Positions 2,281-40,715 of a stretch of DNA of 50,579 bases are shown piece after piece (position 1 is the stretch's first letter; every line of letters starts with the position of its first letter). Source of the stretch: an uncultured Clostridia bacterium (GTDB taxonomy: Bacteria > Bacillota > Clostridia > Christensenellales > Aristaeellaceae). The notes beneath the pieces are model-generated. The model saw only the letters and a list, made by a program, of their open reading frames with translations. It was not told the origin of the DNA and did not search any database. The stretch is taken from the NCBI GenBank assembly GCA_945928315.1, contig CAMENN010000005.1:1-50579 (forward strand), given 5' to 3'. The position numbers and the translations under genes were made by a program.

Positions 2281-3777
2281 ATGAAACTTGATTTTGAATA
2301 CGGCAACGGCTTCATGAGCGCCAACCTGCCGGACAATACCGACATCTTCATCCCGGGCGAGACCGTGCCCGATCCCGAGTGCCTGCCGCAGGACTGGGAC
2401 AGCCTGTACAAGGCGACGCTCGATTCCATCCGCCATCCCATCGGCATGGAGCCCCTCGCCGAGCTGGCGCACAAGGGCAGCACCGTCGTCATCGTCATCC
2501 CGGACATCGTCAAGGGCGGCAACCAGCCGACCAGCCACCGCAAGGTCGCCATCCGCGCGTGCCTCGACGAGCTCTACAGCGCGGGCGTCGAAAAGAAGGA
2601 CGTGCTGCTGCTCTTCTCCAACGGCCTGCATCCGCGTGCGACCGTGCAGGAGATGAAGACCATCCTCGGCGACGAGCTGTTTGGTGAGTTCTACTACTCC
2701 GGCCAGATCACCAGCCACGACAGCGAGGACTACGACCACCTCGTCGATCTGGGCTACACCGATCAGGGCGACCACGTCATCATGAACAAGTACGTCTATG
2801 ACGCGGATGTCGCCGTGCTCATCGGCCACACGCAGGGCAACCCCTACGGCGGCTACTCCGGCGGCTACAAGCACTGCGCCACCGGCATCTCCCACTGGCG
2901 CAGCATCGCGGCGCACCACGTGCCGCAGGTCATGCACCGCCCGGACTTCGTGCCCGTGTCCACCAACAGCCTGATGCGCGACAAGTTCGACCGTCAGGGC
3001 ATGCTGATGGAGGAGAAGATGGGCAAGAAGTTCTTCTGCTGCGATGCCGTGCTCGATACCAAATCCCGCCAGATCGAGATCAATTCCGGCTGGGCGAAGG
3101 AGATGCAGCCCGTCAGCTGGAAGACCGCCGACAAGCGCACCTACGTCCACTGGGCCGAGAAGAAGTACGACGTCGTCGTCTTCGGCATGCCCACCAACTT
3201 CCACTACGGCAACGGCATGGGCACCAATCCCATCCAGATGATGCAGGCGCTCTCCGCCCAGGTCATCCGGCATAAGCGTGTGCTCTCCGACCACTGCGTG
3301 TTCATCGTGCCGAGCATCTGCGACGGCTGGTTCCACGAGGAGCGCTGGCCGTATCTGCGCGAGCTGTATGACATGTTCCAGCACGACTATATGCAGACCC
3401 TGCCGGACATGAACCGCTACGGCGAGTACTTCGCCACCAACGAGGAGTACATCCGCAAGTACCGCTTCGCCAATGCGTTCCATCCGTTCCACGGCTTCTC
3501 GATGATGAGCTGCGGCCATCTGGCAGAGATGCACACCAGCGCCATCTACATCGTCGGCGCGCGCGAGCCGGGCATCGCCCGCGGCATGGGCCTCAAGACC
3601 CGCGCAACCGTCGAGGAGGCGCTCGAGGACGCCAAGCGCAAGATCGTCGGTCCGAATCCGAACATCCTCGCGCTGCCGAAGACGTTCACGACGGCGGCCG
3701 TGCACCTGTGCATGAAGGACCCGGCCGAGAACAGCCACTACCGCGACGACGCGCCCGCGCATCCCTGCGGGTGCTGA
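2281..3777 (+). CDS. LarA/DUF2088-family nickel-pincer-nucleotide-type racemase/epimerase homologue
   Basis: NGLHPRATVQEM, TSHDSEDYDHLVDLG and GGYSGGYKHCATG match LarA-type His/His/Lys motif positions; SD aaggaga upstream. Confidence 0.75.
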   Translation: MKLDFEYGNGFMSANLPDNTDIFIPGETVPDPECLPQDWDSLYKATLDSIRHPIGMEPLAELAHKGSTVVIVIPDIVKGGNQPTSHRKVAIRACLDELYSAGVEKKDVLLLFSNGLHPRATVQEMKTILGDELFGEFYYSGQITSHDSEDYDHLVDLGYTDQGDHVIMNKYVYDADVAVLIGHTQGNPYGGYSGGYKHCATGISHWRSIAAHHVPQVMHRPDFVPVSTNSLMRDKFDRQGMLMEEKMGKKFFCCDAVLDTKSRQIEINSGWAKEMQPVSWKTADKRTYVHWAEKKYDVVVFGMPTNFHYGNGMGTNPIQMMQALSAQVIRHKRVLSDHCVFIVPSICDGWFHEERWPYLRELYDMFQHDYMQTLPDMNRYGEYFATNEEYIRKYRFANAFHPFHGFSMMSCGHLAEMHTSAIYIVGAREPGIARGMGLKTRATVEEALEDAKRKIVGPNPNILALPKTFTTAAVHLCMKDPAENSHYRDDAPAHPCGC

Positions 3778-3792
3778 GTGGGGCGGGATGAT

Positions 3793-4578
3793 ATGATATT
3801 CGTCTGCTTTCTTGTCTGCATCCTGAGCACGATGATCGGCGCGATCAGCGGCATCGGCGGGGGCGTCATCATCAAGCCCATGCTCGATATGACGCTGCCG
3901 CTGGGCATGCCCACGATCAGCCTGATCTCCTCGTTTGCGGTGCTGTCGATGTCGCTGTTCAGCGTCGGCAGGAATTATCTTAAAAAGGATCGCCAGACGC
4001 TCAGCCTGCGCGTCGCCGTGCCGCTTGCCATCGGCTCCACGGCGGGCGGCGTGCTGGGCAAGTCGGCGTTCGCCGCGGTGACGGCGATGCTTGCCGCCGA
4101 CCGGCAGGTCAAGGTCGTGCAGAACGTCGTGCTCTTCGCGCTGATGCTCGTGGTGCTCGTCTCGGCCCTGCGCAGCGGAGAGAAGAAGGAGACGCCCGCG
4201 CGCGCGCCGTGGACGGGCCTCGTCGCGGGCCTGATCCTCGGCGTGCTGGCTGCGTTCCTGGGCATCGGCGGCGGCCCGCTGAACATGCTGGCCCTGACGG
4301 GCTTCTACGGCATGCTCCACAAGGAGGGCGCGCTGTACTCGCTGTTCATCATCATCTTCTCGCAGACGGCGGGCATCGTCACCGCGCTGGTCACGGGCAG
4401 CGGCACGATGCCGCAGCTCTCGATGCTCGTCACCGCGTGCGCGGCGGGCATCCTCGGCGGCGTGATCGGCCGGCGCTTTGCCGCGCGGATGAGCAACACT
4501 GCTGTGCGCAGGCTGTACAACGCTGCGCTGGTGTTCATTCTCGCGATCTGCGCGGTCAATATCCTGTCGATTCTCTGA
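3793..4578 (+). CDS. Sulfite exporter TauE/SafE-family permease
   Basis: Two related half-repeats with GAISGIGGGVIIKP and AAFLGIGGGPLNM; multiple TM helices. Confidence 0.85.
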   Translation: MIFVCFLVCILSTMIGAISGIGGGVIIKPMLDMTLPLGMPTISLISSFAVLSMSLFSVGRNYLKKDRQTLSLRVAVPLAIGSTAGGVLGKSAFAAVTAMLAADRQVKVVQNVVLFALMLVVLVSALRSGEKKETPARAPWTGLVAGLILGVLAAFLGIGGGPLNMLALTGFYGMLHKEGALYSLFIIIFSQTAGIVTALVTGSGTMPQLSMLVTACAAGILGGVIGRRFAARMSNTAVRRLYNAALVFILAICAVNILSIL

Positions 4579-4590
4579 GCACACAAAAGC

Positions 4591-4620
4591 GGAGCCTTCC
4601 CGTTCGGGAGGGCTCCTTTT
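4591..4620. terminator. Intrinsic terminator
   Basis: GGAGCCTTCCC-gttc-GGGAGGGCTCC-TTTT between convergent tauE-like and nth. Confidence 0.85.
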
Positions 4621-4638
4621 GCATGCGGGCGCACGGCT

Positions 4639-5292
4639 TCAGCCGTTTTGCGCTGTTTCCTTTTCCCCGTTCGCGTAGTCGCACCACGCGCGCAGCGTGC
4701 AGGCTTCGCACGCGGGCTTGCGCGCCGCGCAGACCTGCCGTCCGTGGAAGATGAGCCAGTGGTGCGCGCGGCTCCACTTGTCCTTCGGGATGGCCTGCAT
4801 GAGCTGCTCCTCGGTTTTGAGCACGTCCGGCGCGCTGGCCAGGCCGAGGCGGTTGGTGACGCGGAAGACGTGCGTATCCACCGCGATGGCGTCCGCGCCG
4901 AATGCGCAGCTCATGACCACATTGGCCGTCTTGCGCCCGACGCCGGGCAGCTTCGTCAGCTTTTCGTGATCGGCGGGCACCTCGCCGCCGTACTGCTCCA
5001 CCAGCGCGCGCGCTGTGAGCACGAGATTCTTCGCCTTGTTGTGGTACAGGCCGCAGGTGCGGATGTACGGCTCGACCTCCTCCGGCGTCGCTTTGGCGAG
5101 CGCCTGCGCGTCCGGATAGGCCGCGAAGAGTGCAGGCGTGACCATGTTCACCTTCACATCCGTGCACTGCGCGGAGAGGATGACCGCCAGAAGCAGCTGA
5201 TAGGCGTTGTCAAAATGCAGCGCGGGCCTGGCGTCGGGATACAGGCGCTCCAGCTCGGCGAGAATGTGTTCGTTCTTTTCCTGCCGCGTCAA
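4639..5292 (-). CDS. nth: Endonuclease III
   Basis: HhH LPGVGRKTANVV, AVDTHVFRV, C-terminal Cys cluster CAARKPACEACTLRAWC. Confidence 0.95.
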   Translation of the reverse strand: MTRQEKNEHILAELERLYPDARPALHFDNAYQLLLAVILSAQCTDVKVNMVTPALFAAYPDAQALAKATPEEVEPYIRTCGLYHNKAKNLVLTARALVEQYGGEVPADHEKLTKLPGVGRKTANVVMSCAFGADAIAVDTHVFRVTNRLGLASAPDVLKTEEQLMQAIPKDKWSRAHHWLIFHGRQVCAARKPACEACTLRAWCDYANGEKETAQNG

Positions 5293-5365
5293 GTGGATTC
5301 CTTCTTCCTGTGTGGAAAGATGATACCCTGATTATAGCCGTTTTGGCGGGAAAACGCAAGGGCGC

Positions 5366-5392
5366 AAAAACGCCCCGCGTGATCGCGGGGCG
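5366..5392 (-). terminator. Intrinsic terminator of pfp
   Basis: CGCCCCGCG-tgat-CGCGGGGCG followed by TTTTT on the minus strand. Confidence 0.85.
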
Positions 5393-5432
5393 GGAGGCTG
5401 TTGACAGGGACGCGAAGCGGACTTGCAGCGCT

Positions 5433-6674
5433 TTAATCCTGATCCGCAGGCAGGTGCAGGTGGCGCGGCAGGCCGCCGACCAGGATGCACGGGTCGTCGC
5501 CCTGAATCAGCGGACGGACGTAATCGACGAAGTCCTGCGTCACGTTGGTGCCGTCCTCGGTGATCCAGCTGCGCGGCACGAGCTTTTCGCCGTTGGCGAT
5601 CTTGTGCACGTCGTAGATGCCCGTGGCGGACTGGTACGGATCGTCGGAGACGCGGTCGATGACGACCATGCGGCCGCTGTCGCCCTCGTCCGCGGCCTTG
5701 ACCGCCGCGCCGCCGACCATGAACGCCTCGTTGATGTCCACGCGGGAGGCCAGATGCGACGCGCTGCGCTGGAGCGAGCTGAACTCGACCGCGCGGGTCT
5801 TGCAGCCCATCTCGCGGCTGACGAGATTCGCCAGGTACGTCGCCGAGCCGGTGAGCTGCTTGTGGCCGAACGCGTCCACATAGTCGGAGCCGCCGCCGGC
5901 CTGGCTCACATAGGTGCCGTCCGCCAGGCGGATGCCCTCGGAGATGGCGACGAACACGGTGTTCTTGTGCTCGAGCAGGCTGCGCACCTTCGCCAGGAAC
6001 GCCTCGATGTCAAAGGGCACTTCGGGCAGATAGATGAGATCGACGCCCTCGCAGTCCTCGCCCTTGGCCAGCGCGGCCGCGCCGGTGAGCCAGCCCGCGT
6101 TGCGGCCCATGATCTCGATGATCGTGACCAGCTGCTTCTTGTAGGAGAAGCCGTTGCCGTCGCGGATGACCTCCTTGACGGAGGTGGCGATGTACTTCGC
6201 CGCGCTGCCGTAGCCCGGCGTGTGGTCGGTCAGGGCGAGGTCGTTGTCGATCGTCTTGGGCACGCCGAGGAAGCGCTGCGGCTTGCCGGTGAGCAGCGCG
6301 TAGTCGGAGAGCTTCTTGATGGTGTCCATCGAGTCGTTGCCGCCGATGTAGATGAAGCACTCGATGTTGAGCTTGTCGAGAATGTCGAAGATCTTGACGT
6401 AGATGTCCTGATTCTCGTGGATGGCGGGCAGCTTGTAGCGGCAGGTGCCCAGGAAGGCGGACGGGGTGCGCTTGAGGATCTCGATGTCCAGCTCGTTCTT
6501 GATATAGTCGGACAGATCGACGTACTTCTCATCGAGCAGGCCCTGGATGCCGTAGCGCATGCCGTAGACCTTGTTGAAGCCGCGATCCATGGCCGTCTTG
6601 AACACGCCCGCCAGGCTGGAGTTGATGACAGCCGTCGGGCCGCCGGATTGTCCTACGATGATGTTGCCTTTCAT
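5433..6674 (-). CDS. pfp: 6-phosphofructokinase, probably PPi-dependent
   Basis: GQSGGPTAVINSS, IGGNDSMDTI (Asp where ATP-PFKs have Gly), PKTIDNDL, GRNAGWL. Confidence 0.85.
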   Translation of the reverse strand: MKGNIIVGQSGGPTAVINSSLAGVFKTAMDRGFNKVYGMRYGIQGLLDEKYVDLSDYIKNELDIEILKRTPSAFLGTCRYKLPAIHENQDIYVKIFDILDKLNIECFIYIGGNDSMDTIKKLSDYALLTGKPQRFLGVPKTIDNDLALTDHTPGYGSAAKYIATSVKEVIRDGNGFSYKKQLVTIIEIMGRNAGWLTGAAALAKGEDCEGVDLIYLPEVPFDIEAFLAKVRSLLEHKNTVFVAISEGIRLADGTYVSQAGGGSDYVDAFGHKQLTGSATYLANLVSREMGCKTRAVEFSSLQRSASHLASRVDINEAFMVGGAAVKAADEGDSGRMVVIDRVSDDPYQSATGIYDVHKIANGEKLVPRSWITEDGTNVTQDFVDYVRPLIQGDDPCILVGGLPRHLHLPADQD

Positions 6675-6801
6675 GTGTGGGGCACCTCCCAAAGTGATTG
6701 ATCTATGGATTCATTATAGCATAGGGTGTGAAAAAGCGCCAGAAATAAACGGGCAGAGTGACGGGAAAAACAAAACAGATTGCAGGAAATTGTACAAAAT
6801 A

Positions 6802-6837
6802 GCGTCCATGCGGGAGGAAAATGTCCCGCATGGACGC
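6802..6837 (-). other. Perfect 14-bp inverted repeat, possible terminator reading leftward
   Basis: GCGTCCATGCGGGA-ggaaaatg-TCCCGCATGGACGC; minus-strand tail TATTTTG. Confidence 0.6.
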
Positions 6838-6997
6838 AGGAAGTATGGGGTTCGGTTTTCGGGAAAACCGGGAAAAACGGTGTGCGGGTGGTCTGGACAA
6901 GGGGGACGGGGGCTGCGGCGCGCTGGGCTGGGCGGTATGAAGCGGGGACGGGCTGCGGCGCGCGGTCTGTGGATGGAGCGAAGCCGAGCGGAAGCTC

Positions 6998-7155
6998 CCC
7001 GTCAGGTATCGCTTCGCTCCCTGACTGCTTTCTTTTTTTGATCGCTTCGCGATGGGGACGTTGGGGCTTTGCCCCAAACCCCACAAGGGGCGCCGCCCCT
7101 TGACCCCGCAAGGGACGAAATCCCTTGACCTTTCCTCGCTTCGCGCGGCTTTAAG
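6998..7155 (-). repeat. R-family structured repeat, copy R3 (three-hairpin subtype)
   Basis: Read on minus: GCGCGAAGCGAGGAAAGG...AAGGGATTTCGTCCCTT...AAGGGGCGGCGCCCCTT...TTGGGGCAAAGCCCCAA...ATCGCGAAGCGAT...GTCAGGGAGCGAAGCGATACCTGACGG. Starts 10 nt after the stop of the minus-strand DUF3343 gene. Confidence 0.9.
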
Positions 7156-7164
7156 CGGCCTTTT

Positions 7165-7434
7165 CTACATCAAGGGCGTCAGCCGGATGTCCCTCGTCCC
7201 GAAATCGTCCACTCGGTAAAAACCCACCAGCGCGGTGGGGTTCAGCCTGCGGTAGACGGCCATGACCTGCCGAAGCTCACTCAACTCGAACCGCACGGAC
7301 AGCCCGCAGCCGATGGCGACCTGCCGCGGCGTCGAGATCACGCCGGCGGACAGCCCCGCGCGGCGCAGCGCATCCTCCATGCGCAGCACCTGCGTGCGCG
7401 AGCGAAAGGCGGCGATGCCGAAGGATGAATTCAT
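7165..7434 (-). CDS. DUF3343 protein (putative Se/S-carrier-like)
   Basis: About 90 aa; FRSRTQVLRMEDALRRAGLSAGVISTPRQVAIGCGLSVRF with the conserved CG motif. Confidence 0.8.
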   Translation of the reverse strand: MNSSFGIAAFRSRTQVLRMEDALRRAGLSAGVISTPRQVAIGCGLSVRFELSELRQVMAVYRRLNPTALVGFYRVDDFGTRDIRLTPLM

Positions 7435-7531
7435 ATGCGCTCCCTCCTGAATCTTCCTCGGGGAATCCCTCATATACTGCCAGTGTATGCCGGGCGCCGG
7501 ACGGGGTGCGCCGGCGCGGAGGGGGATGCGC

Positions 7532-8662
7532 ATGATTTATCTGGACAACGCGGCGACGAGCTTTCCCAGGCCCGCGAGCGTGGCGCGCGCGATGTCGGAC
7601 GCGCTCACGCAGTGCGGCGCGAATCCGGGACGCGCGGGCCATCGGCTCGCCCTGGCCGCAGGGCGGATCGTCGAGGGCTGCCGGGAGGACCTGGCGGCGA
7701 TGCTGGGGGAGACGGACGCCTCGCGCGTGGCGTTCGCCTGCAACGCGACGGACGCGCTCAATATGGCGATTCACGGCGTGGTGCGCACGGGCGACCACGT
7801 CGTCACAACGCTGCTGGAGCACAACTCCGTGCTGCGCCCGCTCTCGGAGCTCTCGCGCAGCGGCGCGATCACGCTGAGCATCGTGCCGCCGGACGCGCAG
7901 GGGATGATCCGCGCGCAGGACGTGGCGCAGGCGATGACCCCGCGCACGCGGCTGGTCGCCATGACGCACATGTCGAACGTCCTCGGCGCGGCGCAGGATG
8001 TCGCGGCGGTCGGCATGCTATGCCGAAGGCGCGGGGTGCTCCTGCTGGTCGATTGCGCGCAGACGGCGGGGCATCTGCCGCTCACGCCGCGGGCATGGGG
8101 CGCGGCGCTGCTGGCGATGCCGGGGCACAAGGGACTGCTCGGGCCGCACGGCACGGGCGCGCTGTGGGTGCGGGAGGACGTGCAGCCTGCGCCGCTCAGG
8201 CAGGGCGGCACAGGCTCCGCGTCGGAGAGCATGTTCCAGCCGCGGATGATGCCCGACGCATTGGAGAGCGGCACGCTGAACCTGCCGGGCATCGCGGGGC
8301 TGCGCGCGGGCATGCGCGAAGCGCTTGCGCACCGGGAGGAGGCGCATGCGGCGGCCGTCGCGATGTGTGACGGCATGCGCGCGGAGCTGCTCTGTCTGCC
8401 GGGGGTGCGGGTGTATACGCCGGAGGGCGCGTCGCTGCTCAGCTTCACTGTGGAGGGCATTGCCTCGCAGGAGGTGGCGGCGGCGCTGGACGGCATGGGG
8501 ATCGCCGTGCGCGGCGGGCTGCACTGTGCACCGGGCGTACACCGGTTTTTGGGGACGCTGGAGAGCGGGGCTGTGCGCGTGAGCCCGGGAATCTATAATA
8601 CGAAGCAGGATGCACAGGCGCTGCTGATGGCCGTGCGCCGGATCGCGAGGGGAAAGCGATAA
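7532..8662 (+). CDS. Aminotransferase class V, cysteine desulfurase-like (EF2568-type)
   Basis: MIYLDNAATSFPRP, LLEHNSVLRPL, VDCAQTAGHLPL, MPGHKGLLGPHGTGALWV, RGGLHCAPGVH (catalytic Cys). Confidence 0.88.
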   Translation: MIYLDNAATSFPRPASVARAMSDALTQCGANPGRAGHRLALAAGRIVEGCREDLAAMLGETDASRVAFACNATDALNMAIHGVVRTGDHVVTTLLEHNSVLRPLSELSRSGAITLSIVPPDAQGMIRAQDVAQAMTPRTRLVAMTHMSNVLGAAQDVAAVGMLCRRRGVLLLVDCAQTAGHLPLTPRAWGAALLAMPGHKGLLGPHGTGALWVREDVQPAPLRQGGTGSASESMFQPRMMPDALESGTLNLPGIAGLRAGMREALAHREEAHAAAVAMCDGMRAELLCLPGVRVYTPEGASLLSFTVEGIASQEVAAALDGMGIAVRGGLHCAPGVHRFLGTLESGAVRVSPGIYNTKQDAQALLMAVRRIARGKR

Positions 8663-8672
8663 TCGCCAGGCT

Positions 8673-8830
8673 GCTTCAAACCGCGCGAAGCGAGGAAGGG
8701 TCAAGGGGCTAAGCCCCTTGCGGGGTCTGGGGCGGCGCCCCAGGCGGGGTTTGGGGCAGCCGCCCCAACGTTCCCCCATCGCGAAGCGATCCAAAAAAGA
8801 AGCAGTCAGGGAGCGAAGCGAGCCCTGACG
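8673..8830 (+). repeat. R-family structured repeat, copy R4 (three-hairpin subtype)
   Basis: CCGCGCGAAGCGAGGAAGGGTC AAGGGGCTAAGCCCCTT ... CTGGGGCGGCGCCCCAG ... TTGGGGCAGCCGCCCCAA ... ATCGCGAAGCGAT ... GTCAGGGAGCGAAGCGAGCCCTGACGG. Confidence 0.9.
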
Positions 8831-8936
8831 GTGAGTTTCCTGAAACCCGGGCTTGCCCTGAACACCAAAAGCCGCCCTCCACTGCTGTCTGTTTCCAGAA
8901 CACCGGGGGAGGGCGGCCATGCGCCTTTGCGATGTG

Positions 8937-9410
8937 TCACTGTACGCCGCTGAAGCTGGCGACGAGCTCGTCGATCTGGTCGCGCAGCTGCGTGGTCAGG
9001 TCGGTGAGCACGCTGCCCGCCTGCAATCGCGTGTCGCACTGATCGAGCGTGCTCACGCAGCTGGTGAGCAGGTCCGCGTCAGCGACGAGCGTGCCCGCGC
9101 CGTAGATGTTCGCCGTCAGCGTGTTGAGGCTTTGCAGCGTGTAGATGTGGCCGCGCACCGTGGCCAGCAGCGAGGCCGTGTTCGTGCCGCTGGACTGCGT
9201 CAGGCGGTAGACGGCGTTCTGCGCGGAGCCAGCTTCGCTGACGGCCCGGGCGATGAGCGCCTCGCTGGTGGCCTCGCTCACGCGGGCGGCCTTCACATAG
9301 GCGAAGGTCACGCCGACCAGCGCAATGATCAGGATGAATATGATGATGTACAGAAGACGGACGAGCTGTTTGTTCTTGCGCCGGCCGCTGCCGGCCTGAA
9401 ATGAATACAT
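8937..9410 (-). CDS. Hypothetical protein with one N-terminal TM helix
   Basis: MYSFQAGSGRRKNKQ + hydrophobic LVRLLYIIIFILIIALVGVTFAYV + helical Ser/Thr/Ala-rich tail; SD aaaggagg. Confidence 0.7.
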   Translation of the reverse strand: MYSFQAGSGRRKNKQLVRLLYIIIFILIIALVGVTFAYVKAARVSEATSEALIARAVSEAGSAQNAVYRLTQSSGTNTASLLATVRGHIYTLQSLNTLTANIYGAGTLVADADLLTSCVSTLDQCDTRLQAGSVLTDLTTQLRDQIDELVASFSGVQ

Positions 9411-9591
9411 AGGCAACCTCCTTTGACCGTTGCAGGAACGGTCATGCTCCGCACCATTATAGCACAACATGCGGATGGAGGTAAAGGAGGCTAATTTCCC
9501 GCAAAACCGACATTTGCGTGGAGCGAATGCGTGAAAATCTGTCGGATTGTGGTGAAAAAGTGGAGAATATGGCCCAAATCCGTGCAGAGAC

Positions 9592-9621
9592 TTGAAGACC
9601 GGCGGCAAAATGGCGTATAAT
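9592..9621 (+). promoter_or_regulatory. Candidate sigma-A promoter of cmk
   Basis: TTGAAG-18-TATAAT. Confidence 0.55.
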
Positions 9622-9672
9622 TGAAACAACAGCAAAGGCGGCATGCGCTGCCGGTTTGGGGAGGAAGACATC

Positions 9673-10347
9673 ATGCCGATGAACATTGCCATCGACGGGC
9701 CGGTGGGGGCGGGAAAGTCCTCCATCGCGGACGCGGTGGCCGGAAAACTGGGCATTCTGCATCTGGATACGGGCGCGATGTACCGCGCCCTCGCGCTCTA
9801 TGCGCTGCGCAGCGGCGTGGAGCTGACGGATGAGGCCGCGGTCAGCGCCTGCTGCGCGCAAGCGGACATCGCCGTGGGCTACGCGGACGGGCGTCAGCGC
9901 ACGCTGCTCTCCGGCGAGGACGTGAGCGACCTCATCCGCACGGGCGAGGTTTCCGCGGCCGCGAGCGTCGTCTCGAAGTGGCCGGCTGTGCGCGAGCGCA
10001 TGGTCGCGCTGCAGCAGGAGCTCGCCAGGAAGGGGAACATGCTCATCGACGGGCGGGACATCGGCACCGTCGTGCTGGCGGATTCCCCCTGCAAGATCTA
10101 TCTGACTGCCTCGGCGGAGGAACGCGCCCGCAGGCGGTATCTGCAGAATCTCGAAAAGGGTGACAATACGCCCTTTGAGGACGTGCTTGCGGCGCTCAAC
10201 GCACGCGACGCGCAGGACATGGGCCGCGCGGTCAGCCCGCTGCGGCAGGCGGAGGACGCGGTGCTCGTGGATTCCACGGACATGACGCGCGAGGAGGTCG
10301 TCGATGCGATCGTGAGGATTGTGGAGGGCATCTATGGAAAGCAATAA
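9673..10347 (+). CDS. cmk: Cytidylate kinase
   Basis: IAIDGPVGAGKSSIADAVAGKLGILHLDTGAMYRALAL, DGRDIGTVV, ARRRYLQ. Confidence 0.95.
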   Translation: MPMNIAIDGPVGAGKSSIADAVAGKLGILHLDTGAMYRALALYALRSGVELTDEAAVSACCAQADIAVGYADGRQRTLLSGEDVSDLIRTGEVSAAASVVSKWPAVRERMVALQQELARKGNMLIDGRDIGTVVLADSPCKIYLTASAEERARRRYLQNLEKGDNTPFEDVLAALNARDAQDMGRAVSPLRQAEDAVLVDSTDMTREEVVDAIVRIVEGIYGKQ

Positions 10348-11131
10348 GCAGGGCGGCGCGGCCGTGCAGGAGGCTCCTGTTGCGCAGGAAGCGACGGCGG
10401 CTCAGGCAGCGCCTGCCGCTCAGGCAGCGCCTGCCGCGCAGGCAGCGCCGGTTCAGGAAGCCCCGGCTGCACGCAAGGCGAAGCAGCCGGAGCCGATTCA
10501 GATGGCGAAGACGAAGCGCACGGTCATCTATTCCATCGTGGTGTTTCTGTACTGGATTATCGTCAAGCTGATCTTCTTCATGCGCTTCGAGGGCCGGGAG
10601 AACATCCCGAAGGACAAAAACGTCATCCTCATGGGCAACCACCAGTGCCTCCTGGACCCGGTGACGCTGGCGCTGTGCGCGCGCGACCGCGAGATTCACT
10701 TCATGGGCAAGAAGGAGCTGTGGAACAACAGGCTCCTCGGATGGGTGTTCACGCAGGTGCACGGCTTCCCGGTCGACCGCGGCAACATGGACATGGGCGC
10801 CATCCGCACGGCGATGGGCGTGCTCAAGGGCGGCGAAACGCTGGGCATCTTCCCGGAGGGCACGCGCTCGAGGGACGGCTACATGCTCCCGCTGCTCTCC
10901 GGCGCGAGCATGCTGGCGCTGCGCAGCGGCTGCGAGGTCATTCCCGTGTACATCGACGGGCGCTACAAGCCCTTCCGCCGCATGACTGTGCGCGTGGGCA
11001 GGGCGGTGGAGATGGACGACCTGCGCGCCGGGCGCGTGACCAAGGAGAGCTGCGACGAGCTGACCGGGCGCATCGAGGAAGAGTTCTATGCGCTCAGCGG
11101 CGGCAAGTCCCGCCGGCCGAAAACGGAATAA
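10334..11131 (+). CDS. plsC: 1-acyl-sn-glycerol-3-phosphate acyltransferase with Ala/Gln/Pro-rich N-terminal extension
   Basis: GNHQCLLDPV (HX4D-type), FPEGTRSR, VIPVYIDGRY; overlaps cmk by 14 nt. Confidence 0.88.
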   Translation: MESNKQGGAAVQEAPVAQEATAAQAAPAAQAAPAAQAAPVQEAPAARKAKQPEPIQMAKTKRTVIYSIVVFLYWIIVKLIFFMRFEGRENIPKDKNVILMGNHQCLLDPVTLALCARDREIHFMGKKELWNNRLLGWVFTQVHGFPVDRGNMDMGAIRTAMGVLKGGETLGIFPEGTRSRDGYMLPLLSGASMLALRSGCEVIPVYIDGRYKPFRRMTVRVGRAVEMDDLRAGRVTKESCDELTGRIEEEFYALSGGKSRRPKTE

Positions 11132-37494: not shown

Positions 37495-37801
37495 AGTCAG
37501 CCTCCTGTATCACAGGGAAATGAGCAAAGGACCGTGCGGCGGACACAGCCCGCTGCACACTGCAAAACAGCGAAAGAGCAGCTCCGGGGATGTTTGAAGG
37601 GGCCGCAGCCCCTTCGTGGAAATCCGCAGCGGCGGCATACGCGCGAGAGAAATGATGTTTTCCGCAGCCCAACCGCTGCAAGGATGCGAAGCAGACTTGC
37701 AGCGCCTGCGCAACATTATAGCACAGCGGCGGTCAATTGACAAAGCCTGCGCGCCGGGTTACAATGAAGCAAACGGAAGCATCTGGAAATGAGGGACGCA
37801 T

Positions 37802-38653
37802 ATGAACGCGGTCACGGCGTTTGAACACAGAGAGGATGCGCTGCGCGCGCAGCTTGAAAAGGCACAGGATATGCAGGCGGCGGTGTCAGCCTGCGCGATG
37901 GCGCTGGAGCAGGCGGCCTGCGAGCTGGCGCAGGATGAGCAGGACGAGCATGCGCGCCAGCGGCAGCAGGCGGTGATGGCCCTGGCGCGGCAGACGCCGC
38001 TGCTGCTGCAGAGCGCGCGGGCGCGGGGCGAGCTGGTGGTGCAGGAGGCGCAGCTGGAGACCTCGTCCTGGGCGAAGCTCGCGCGCGGAATGCAGCTTTG
38101 CGGCGTGCTGGCGCTCACGGCGCTGGCGGTCGTCGATTTCGTGCGCGGGCGCGCGGGCATGGCGCTGGTGCAGGCGCTGGGCGTGCTGCTGCTGGCGGCG
38201 GGGAGCCTGCGCGTGTCGGGCGCTCCGCGGGAGCAGGCGGTGGCGCGGGGCATACCGTGCGTCGATGCGCAGGCACTGATCGTGCAGCTGAAGCGGCTTT
38301 GCCAGGCGGCGGACGTGTGCGTGAGCGACCTGGCGCTGCTGGATCATCCGGCGGGCGGTACGCGTCTGACCGGCACGGCGGACGACGCGATGCTCGACCT
38401 GCTCGTCGCGCTGATGGAGGCGAAGGCCTCCGGGCGCGACGAGATGGCGATGCGCTCGCTCTCGCTGGCGGAGGAGTACCTGCGGATGCTGGGCGTGGAG
38501 GTCGTCTCCTACGCGCCGGAGCGCGCGGCGATGTTCGACTGGCTGCCCACGGTGGGCGCGGCGCGCACGGTGCGCCCGGCGCTTCTCAAGGACGGCAGGG
38601 TGCTGCGCCGCGGCGTGGCGGCGGTGGCGATGGAAGGAGGTGCGCATGCGTGA
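37802..38653 (+). CDS. Predicted membrane protein with GrpE-like C-terminal segment
   Basis: N-terminal coiled-coil-like region, TM hairpin (LCGVLALTALAVVDFV, ALVQALGVLLLAAGSL), C-terminal LGVEVVSY...RTVRPALLKDGRVLRRGVAAVAMEG resembling the GrpE beta-domain. Confidence 0.55.
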   Translation: MNAVTAFEHREDALRAQLEKAQDMQAAVSACAMALEQAACELAQDEQDEHARQRQQAVMALARQTPLLLQSARARGELVVQEAQLETSSWAKLARGMQLCGVLALTALAVVDFVRGRAGMALVQALGVLLLAAGSLRVSGAPREQAVARGIPCVDAQALIVQLKRLCQAADVCVSDLALLDHPAGGTRLTGTADDAMLDLLVALMEAKASGRDEMAMRSLSLAEEYLRMLGVEVVSYAPERAAMFDWLPTVGAARTVRPALLKDGRVLRRGVAAVAMEGGAHA

Positions 38654-40554
38654 AGATCCTCGGGTTTGACCTGGGCGACGGCGAGAGCGCCGTCACGCTG
38701 CTCGATGGGGAATCGACCGTCGAGCCGCGCGTGCTGCCGCTGGCCGGGCGCACGAGCATGATCTCCGCCGTGGCGACGCGCGACGGGCGCATCGTCGTGG
38801 GCGAGGAGGCGAGCGTGCTCGCCGGGGCGCTGGACGCGCAGGTGCGCTTCAAGTCCCGCTATCTGACCGATCCGCAGGCGGCTGCCTCGGTGCGCGCGTT
38901 CGCTCAGGGCGTGATGGGCCTGCTGCTCGCCGAGGAGCCGGGGCTGATGGCCGAGGTGTCGAGCACGGTGGTCGGCTGTCCGGCGGGCTGGGGCGAGGGG
39001 CGGCGTGAGCAATACGCCGCGCTGATCGAATCGGCGGGCTTCCCGAACGTGCGCGTGGTGCCGGAGCCGCGCGCGGCCTTCCTCTATGCGCGCCATGCGC
39101 GGGGCCTGCGCATCGACGCGGAGCTGATGCGCGAGAGCGCGATGGTCATCGACATCGGATCCTCGACGACGGACTTCGCCTATATCGTGGACGGGCATCA
39201 GCAGAACCTCGCGCTCTTCGGCGATACGAACCTGGGCGGCGGCGTGCTCGACGAGCTGATCCTGCGCCGGGCGATCGCACAAAGCCCGGACGCCAGGGAA
39301 CTTGCGCGCGTGATGGAACAGAGCCCGGCCTGGCGCAGCTACTGCGAGCTGGAGGCCCGCAGGCTGAAGGAAAAGTACTTCCTCTCCGAGGAGAAGGGCC
39401 GCGAGGGCGCGCTCTCCGCGCCGCTGACCGTCTGCTATGACAGCACGCTGATGCTGGAGCTGCGCCTTGACGAGGCGATTGTGGACGGGCTGATCCATGA
39501 GCCGGCGCTGGCGCTGGGCGGGCGCAGCTTTATGACCTGCCTGCATGACGCGCTTCGCGCCGCGCAGGAGGCCAGCCGCGAGCGGCCGCCGAAGGTCGTC
39601 ATCCTGACCGGCGGCGCGTCGCGCATGGCGTTCTTCCGGGAGGCATGCCAGCAGGCGTTCCCTGGGAGCGTGATGGTCGTCTGCCCGGAGCCGGAGTGCT
39701 CCATCGCGCGCGGGCTGGCCTATGCCGGGCGCGTCGATGAGCGGCTCTCGGTCTTCCGCGGCGAGGTGGCCTCCATCGCCCGGGGCGAGCGGCTGGGCGC
39801 GCTGGTGGACGAGCGCGTGCACGAGCTGTATGCGCCGATGGCGTCCGCGCTGTTTGAGACGGCGCGCGAGAGCGTGATCAAGTCCGTGCGGCTGTGGCGG
39901 CGCGGCGGCGTGCGCACCATCGACGAGCTGGACGCGCTGATGCAGAAGGAGATCGCGAAGGCGTTTGCCGGCGAGGCGGGGCAGGCGCGCATCGAGGACG
40001 TGCTGCGCGATTGGCTGGCGGACCTGATGCAGCGGCTGGAGGGCGAGCTGACGGCGCTGTGCATGCGCTGCGGCGTGCCGCCCGAGCGCATGTCGCTGAG
40101 CGGAACAAGCGTGGATGCGGGGCTCTCCGGGGTGAAGCTCTCGCTGATGGACGCGATGGGCATGGACATGCTCAGCGGGCTGATGGGCGTCGTGCTGGCG
40201 GTCGTCGGCGCGAGCCTCGGCGGGGGCGGCGGACTGGCGCTGGTGAGCGCGGGACCGGTGGGCATGGCCGCGGGCGCGGCAGCGGGCGTGCTGCTGGCGC
40301 TGGTGGGCAAGGCGGGCATGGAAAAGGCCATCCGCCGGGCGGACCTGCCGCGCTTTGTGCGCCAGCTGGTGACGGACAAGGCCATCCTGCACGGCATGAA
40401 CCGCCAGCGTGAGGAGCTGGAGAGCGCTATCGTGCGCACGCTGGCCGACCCCAGGAACGGCTTTTCCACGCGGCTGTGCGCCAGCATCTCCCGCACGCTG
40501 GGCGTGCAGCTGGAGGAGATGGCCCGCGGCGCGGAGATGTCCATCTGCGCATAG
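38650..40554 (+). CDS. Divergent Hsp70-family ATPase with glycine-rich membrane C-terminal region (GTG start)
   Basis: ILGFDLGDGESAVTLL, VPEPRAAFLYARH, MVIDIGSSTTDFAYI, VVILTGGASRMAFF; SD AAGGAGG before GTG; hydrophobic Gly/Ala region GVVLAVVGASLGGGGGLALVSAGPVGMAAGAAAGVLLALVG. Confidence 0.85.
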   Translation: MKILGFDLGDGESAVTLLDGESTVEPRVLPLAGRTSMISAVATRDGRIVVGEEASVLAGALDAQVRFKSRYLTDPQAAASVRAFAQGVMGLLLAEEPGLMAEVSSTVVGCPAGWGEGRREQYAALIESAGFPNVRVVPEPRAAFLYARHARGLRIDAELMRESAMVIDIGSSTTDFAYIVDGHQQNLALFGDTNLGGGVLDELILRRAIAQSPDARELARVMEQSPAWRSYCELEARRLKEKYFLSEEKGREGALSAPLTVCYDSTLMLELRLDEAIVDGLIHEPALALGGRSFMTCLHDALRAAQEASRERPPKVVILTGGASRMAFFREACQQAFPGSVMVVCPEPECSIARGLAYAGRVDERLSVFRGEVASIARGERLGALVDERVHELYAPMASALFETARESVIKSVRLWRRGGVRTIDELDALMQKEIAKAFAGEAGQARIEDVLRDWLADLMQRLEGELTALCMRCGVPPERMSLSGTSVDAGLSGVKLSLMDAMGMDMLSGLMGVVLAVVGASLGGGGGLALVSAGPVGMAAGAAAGVLLALVGKAGMEKAIRRADLPRFVRQLVTDKAILHGMNRQREELESAIVRTLADPRNGFSTRLCASISRTLGVQLEEMARGAEMSICA

Positions 40555-40570
40555 GAATAATAGCAGAGCT

Positions 40571-40715
40571 GCTTCAAACAGCGCGAAGCGAGGAAGGGAG
40601 TCTGAGGGAAATATCCCTCAGGCAGGGGTTTGGGGGCAAGGCCCCTAACGTTTTCCCCAATCGCGAAGCGATCAAAGAAAAAAGGCCGTCAGGGAGCGAA
40701 GCGATCCCTGACGGG
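40571..40715 (+). repeat. R-family structured repeat, copy R11
   Basis: GCGCGAAGCGAGGAAGGGAGTC TGAGGGAAATATCCCTCA ... GGGGGCAAGGCCCC ... ATCGCGAAGCGAT ... CCGTCAGGGAGCGAAGCGATCCCTGACGG. Confidence 0.9.

Follow-up and report, generated by a model that had tools for sequence, protein, structure and literature searches.

We analyzed two overlapping genes in a 50,579-nucleotide stretch of DNA (hereafter the window; contig C5 of a 2.9-Mb genome in 189 contigs) and found them to form a dedicated pair, in which the second gene encodes an Hsp70-type ATPase lacking the substrate-binding domain and the first a membrane-hairpin protein whose C terminus is likely GrpE-like. The reading that we favor, and hold to be reasonably probable, is that the two proteins make up one membrane ATPase machine, an ATP switch at the membrane that a membrane-bound exchange factor of its own resets.

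Organization and inheritance of the gene pair

Gene 1 (P0002, 283 amino acids; a membrane-anchored, putatively GrpE-like protein and candidate nucleotide exchange factor) occupies positions 37802..38653 of the forward strand, from an ATG at 37802 to a TGA at 38651-38653, and gene 2 (P0001, 634 amino acids; the Hsp70-type ATPase) follows on the same strand at 38650..40554, from a GTG at 38650-38652 to a TAG at 40552-40554. The genes overlap by four bases at the junction GTGA, and the coordinates of the open reading frames agree with the original prediction that the gene 2 start codon lies inside the gene 1 stop codon. The Shine-Dalgarno sequence AAGGAGG at approximately 38634-38640, just 5' of the start of gene 2, gives this gene a strong ribosome-binding site of its own. 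A sigma-70-like promoter (TTGACA-17-TACAAT, forward strand, 37737..37765), identified by consensus match only with 11/12 bases agreeing, ends 36 bases 5' of the gene 1 start codon; three promoter-like sites of such quality were found in the region, compared with 0.2 expected. Two divergent promoter-like sites overlap within 37715-37765, one facing gene 1 and the other the gene for an RluA-type pseudouridine synthase. On the other side, an inverted repeat at 40686-40714 (13-nucleotide arms, 92% complementary), possibly a terminator, separates the pair from a NagB-like gene. The neighbors within the window are metabolic or housekeeping genes and include, besides these two, genes for a phosphorylase, a 4-alpha-glucanotransferase and a NagA-like protein. 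The host genome carries ordinary grpE and dnaK genes on other contigs.

Both reading frames are kept in dozens of species at 15-83% identity, a conservation that, judged by sequence comparison, is far beyond chance. We surveyed 150 genomes of the host family with a profile of gene 1 and a profile of the gene 2 tail and found each gene in 52/150 genomes (35%) and both genes in 51. Of the two mismatches, one is a genome whose contig ends inside gene 2 (G217) and the other a genome with gene 2 in which the gene 1 profile did not detect gene 1 (G167). Among the 39 host-family loci fetched, 37 keep the order gene 1, gene 2, with gene 2 starting within about 1.5 kb downstream, and three of these 37 carry unrelated genes in between; in the remaining two (G207 and G321), gene 2 is found approximately 10 kb off on the same contig and strand. 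Gene 1 lies directly upstream of gene 2 in 21 more loci from a collection of genome contigs. The pair is near-universal in several genera of the host family and rare in the phylum outside it, and is found in gut Clostridia and in some cyanobacteria, where true relatives occur in 8/292 genomes with gene 1 upstream in 8/8 loci. A Calothrix conjugative plasmid and two IMG/VR contigs carry the pair as well, the latter in the same order. The near-obligate co-inheritance of the two genes bears out the claim, made from this locus alone, that they form a dedicated pair. The pairwise distances of the partner proteins are also correlated (Spearman 0.77 over 49 loci), a value to which shared ancestry alone contributes.

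The surroundings of the pair vary. Genes for a small P-loop protein or for acetyltransferase-like or methyltransferase-like proteins stand between gene 1 and gene 2 at three loci (L084, L085 and L086), with both genes persisting, and at two others (L101 and L104) a shared block of other genes takes the place of gene 2 after gene 1, and gene 2 lies some 10 kb off, still on that contig. In the two IMG/VR contigs (L115:3106-9666 and L116:2180-9657), a HerA-type (DUF87) ATPase gene directly downstream overlaps gene 2 and an EF-Tu-type protein is encoded beside it, an arrangement that looks like a separate island-type system. At L112 (reverse-complement 7222-10282), gene 2 is diverged, and the gene after it encodes a 349-amino-acid protein that has hydrophobic stretches and whose end vaguely resembles that of gene 1; this protein goes unrecognized by the gene 1 profile, and its gene lies 3', not 5', of gene 2. 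A phage collection contained no full-length relatives, and the matches found there were partial ones confined to the Hsp70 region.

The distribution bears on an explanation that we consider improbable, namely that the pair is a defense or conflict module in which an NTP-driven membrane effector is held restrained and released on infection. Such a module would fit the patchy spread over family genomes, cyanobacteria and a conjugative plasmid, the HerA-type and EF-Tu-type neighbors in the two IMG/VR contigs, and the HSP70-GrpE themes described in predicted conflict systems (Kaur et al. 2020, PMC7159879). However, the pair is near-universal in several genera, with the divergence of one partner mirrored in the other, and its neighbors in the window are housekeeping genes; across 58 loci, no third gene is conserved around the pair and no effector or defense gene recurs.

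The ATPase head and helical tail of gene 2

The first 362 residues of gene 2 (38650..39735, forward strand) form an Hsp70-type nucleotide-binding domain. The curated Pfam model PF00012 matches residues 98-361 with E 2.7e-10 and 39.6 bits, above the cut-off of 20.6, and the AlphaFold2 model of the protein (mean pLDDT 80.8, pTM 0.74) retrieved Hsp70 in all of the 50 PDB matches listed by Foldseek, the best with E 6.8e-14. Strong matches in the BFVD database were likewise to Hsp70-type heads only. The nucleotide-binding motifs from which this domain had originally been recognized are all present, GFDLGDGES at residues 5-13, EPRAAFLYA at 139-147, VIDIGSSTTDF at 166-176 and LTGGASRM at 319-326. When 25 diverse relatives with 19-71% identity to P0001 were aligned, residues E139, D168, T173 and D175, which correspond to E171, D194, T199 and D201 of Escherichia coli DnaK, proved to be kept in at least 24/25. 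The sole exception is a degenerate second copy of gene 2 at one locus, L107, that lacks both aspartates. F67-K68 is invariant or nearly so, and K68 is probably equivalent to K70 of DnaK, the position fitting although the alignment is gapped there. Taken together, the profile, the fold matches and the residue tally show that gene 2 has the Hsp70 ATPase fold with its catalytic residues. The EEVD tail marks the eukaryotic cytosolic Hsp70s, and its absence is therefore uninformative for a bacterial protein.

Two relatives depart from the usual number of heads. At L107 (reverse-complement 6743-10664), gene 1 is followed by two copies of gene 2, the second of which no longer has the aspartates of phosphate 2 or the adenosine motif and therefore looks like a pseudo-ATPase partner. 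A cyanobacterial gene 2 at L199 (reverse-complement 2995-6231) encodes 1,078 amino acids, with two tandem Hsp70-type heads followed by one stalk.

The same comparisons make it very unlikely that gene 2 is a filament-forming relative of actin, of the MreB, ParM or FtsA type, with gene 1 as an anchor unrelated to GrpE. Weak matches to the MreB and FtsA profiles were seen, and the actin fold is common to all these proteins, but Hsp70 scored higher and none of the 50 PDB matches listed was MreB or ParM. The MreB model gave 22.2 bits against a cut-off of 27, and we rejected an identity of gene 2 as MreB or ParM from the scores.

Beyond the head, residues 363-634 (39736..40551, forward strand) form a C-terminal stalk of approximately 270 residues, which is all-helical in the AlphaFold2 model, with low confidence at a Gly/Ala-rich hydrophobic hairpin at residues 499-563 (40144..40338, forward strand). 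The hairpin is supported by hydropathy peaks at 507-555 and a conserved GG...GP motif, and the observation that the protein ends in a Gly/Ala-rich hydrophobic stretch and helices holds in both hydropathy and model. The tail is homologous at long range, with the Calothrix protein and the relatives at L112 and L115 all scoring far above shuffled controls. We found no Hsp70 linker in gene 2 and, in agreement with what had been noted from the letters of the gene, no beta-sandwich substrate-binding domain; the PF00012 match stops at profile position 373/599, and the model of the tail is helical. Two relatives (L030:1370-3067 and L200:2705-4708) lack the hairpin in gene 2 and nevertheless keep the membrane hairpin of gene 1. 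Membrane insertion of gene 2 is thus nonessential to the family, and these cases suggest that gene 1 can anchor both proteins at the membrane.

A further explanation, which corresponds to the envelope proteostasis suggested at the outset, is that the pair is a membrane-bound chaperone: gene 1 would serve as the exchange factor, and the helical C terminus of gene 2 would bind clients that are exported or reside in the membrane. An Hsp70 head and a GrpE-like partner are the core of a chaperone machine, and both proteins carry hydrophobic hairpins. We nevertheless regard this explanation as unlikely: the substrate-binding domain is missing, nothing in the surrounding carbohydrate and amino-sugar genes hints at a stress regulon, and the absence of a linked J-protein, noted originally for this locus, extended to all 58 loci.

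A comparably unlikely explanation, rated level with the chaperone or slightly below it, is that of an ATP-driven counterpart of dynamin, with an Hsp70 head on a dynamin-type trunk and paddle that is reset by a membrane-embedded GrpE relative and bends, remodels, tethers or fuses membrane. Its evidence comes from distant relatives of gene 2. One of them, P0006, whose C terminus is homologous to that of P0001, matched models of the dynamin-like Leo proteins along the trunk and in the segment directly behind the GTPase domain (E values: LeoBC, 2.3e-11; LeoA, 1.4e-8; LeoB, 1.8e-6), as did those at L116 (LeoB, 2.3e-7) and L112 (LeoBC, 1.8e-6); for a distant relative, the piece preceding the hairpin alone gave 2.1e-6 with LeoA, compared with approximately 1e-3 for window-shuffled or reversed decoys. 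P0001 itself, however, matched LeoBC (PADLOC) with 0.0018, the level of reversed decoys, and a dynamin profile made from Bacillota dynamins and one cyanobacterial protein gave no signal above noise. Moreover, Gly-rich stretches give false matches near 1e-6 with unrelated transglutaminase-like proteins. For these reasons we take the dynamin trunk to be no more than a lead. The dynamin G-domain was absent from the listed Pfam families of all 25 gene 2 members, a search of a relative's C-terminal part against PDB sequences gave no credible match, and no dynamin fold was among the PDB matches listed, where the Hsp70 head would mask one. False matches to the hydrophobic stretches, rejected as relatives, were two cyanobacterial transglutaminase-like proteins (L201 and L202), a tail-tape-like protein (G636) and a P-type ATPase (G426).

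The membrane hairpin and C terminus of gene 1

Three parts were distinguished in gene 1, all on the forward strand. An N-terminal helical region (residues 1-68; 37802..38005) was taken from the AlphaFold2 secondary structure. It is followed by a transmembrane hairpin (38078..38215), placed by hydropathy at helices 93-114 and 118-138 and modeled as helices 89-114 and 118-138, and then by a C-terminal domain (residues 156-276; 38267..38629) composed of helices plus a small beta part, described as GrpE-like on the basis of the model, Foldseek and a profile comparison. The hydrophobic stretch is kept in the aligned relatives, and the C-terminal domain has conserved residues at Y237, F245, P249, P259-A260 and G271. 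The membrane hairpins predicted for the two proteins were thereby recovered, from hydropathy in both and additionally from model helices in gene 1. The AlphaFold2 model has a pLDDT of 79.9 and a pTM of only 0.47, and its strands flank the two-helix transmembrane hairpin. At a Calothrix plasmid locus (L117:9009-9990), gene 1 is frameshifted, and its lost C terminus, PALLKGDRLLRRG, can be read in the following frame.

The original prediction likened the C terminus of gene 1, whose quoted residues (LGVEVVSY...) are present as described, to the beta domain of GrpE. Profile searches gave nothing directly: P0002 had no Pfam match even at E 10 and no NCBIfam or PDB sequence match, and a search of the host genome with PF01025 recovered nothing but the ordinary GrpE, encoded on a different contig. 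When the model was compared with 350,542 PDB chains, Foldseek ranked GrpE of Thermus thermophilus first, with E 0.19 and a probability of 0.54. We then aligned the gene 1 profile to a GrpE profile from the same order, using 52 unrelated neighbor families as decoys (hhalign). The GrpE profile was the best of the 53, aligned the C termini in register and gave a local P of 0.026 and a global P of 0.0043, compared with 0.047 and 0.18, respectively, for the best decoys; its score was also above those of all 60 column shuffles. The order of elements in the model, bundle helices and then a small C-terminal beta domain, fits GrpE. Taken alone, the single tests (Foldseek E 0.19, local P 0.026) are nonsignificant. 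Combining these weak lines with the presence of an Hsp70 partner, we consider a GrpE-like fold for gene 1 quite likely; the predicted likeness thus stands as probable on the top structural rank and the best of 53 profiles, and short of proof on an E value of 0.19 and a protein that matches no Pfam family.

Proposed mechanism and known systems

In the mechanism that we favor, the hairpin of gene 1 would sit in the cytoplasmic membrane and expose the GrpE-like portion, made of a helix and a beta domain. Gene 2 would be an ATP switch of the Hsp70 type in which the helical stalk takes the place of the client-binding domain; at the end of the stalk, the Gly-rich hydrophobic hairpin could enter the membrane. 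The GrpE-like domain would hold the switch at the membrane and open its nucleotide cleft at subdomain IIB, letting ADP out and ATP in, and ATP hydrolysis would move the stalk and hairpin rather than clamp a client peptide. Interaction of the partners, exchange activity and a cytoplasmic topology are what we infer for the pair, and the stalk would presumably act by tethering or remodeling the membrane or by moving a membrane protein. The roles suggested at the outset, envelope proteostasis or stress sensing, gained no specific support, and a membrane-remodeling output is equally open. Because the carriers include cyanobacteria, some of which are genetically tractable, the role of the pair is testable.

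Hsp70 is usually viewed as a clamp for unfolded proteins. If the proposed mechanism is true, the Hsp70 engine has been reused for other membrane work, with the ATPase kept, the clamp dropped, and a membrane stalk and a membrane-anchored exchange factor of its own put to use.

In the literature searched, a scope outside which most subscription journals fall, we found no description of such a pair. The nearest published idea that we found is the theme of HSP70 and GrpE, including HSP70 without a peptide-binding domain, in the predicted GAP1-N2 DO-GTPase conflict systems (Kaur et al. 2020, PMC7159879). Those systems resemble the pair, by description only, in having an HSP70 without the substrate-binding domain near a GrpE gene, but they come with genes for a GTPase, GAP1 and FNIII that do not recur around the pair. 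The dynamin-like LeoA and LeoBC proteins (PMC4159319) share with distant relatives of gene 2 a possible helical trunk and a Gly-rich hydrophobic tip; they differ in having a GTPase head instead of an Hsp70-type ATPase head, and the similarity of P0001 to them is at noise level. A cyanobacterial cluster of dnaK, dnaJ-like and dynamin genes (L032:5818-11945, Tychonema) similarly encodes Hsp70 and dynamin side by side, but its Hsp70 is an ordinary full-length DnaK with the substrate-binding domain, accompanied by a J-protein and a separate dynamin-like GTPase, and it was rejected as a family member.

Judged from sequence, the pair lies outside the strict Hsp70 chaperone family, lacking the substrate-binding domain, and outside the curated GrpE family, gene 1 being too divergent for the Pfam model PF01025. 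In comparison with DnaK and GrpE, it lacks the linker, the substrate-binding domain and a linked J-protein, and both of its proteins carry membrane hairpins. What it has in common with them is a nucleotide-binding domain of the Hsp70 type whose catalytic residues are conserved and, in the partner, a C-terminal part that probably resembles the helices and beta domain of GrpE, and by analogy the two proteins may work like the DnaK-GrpE pair.
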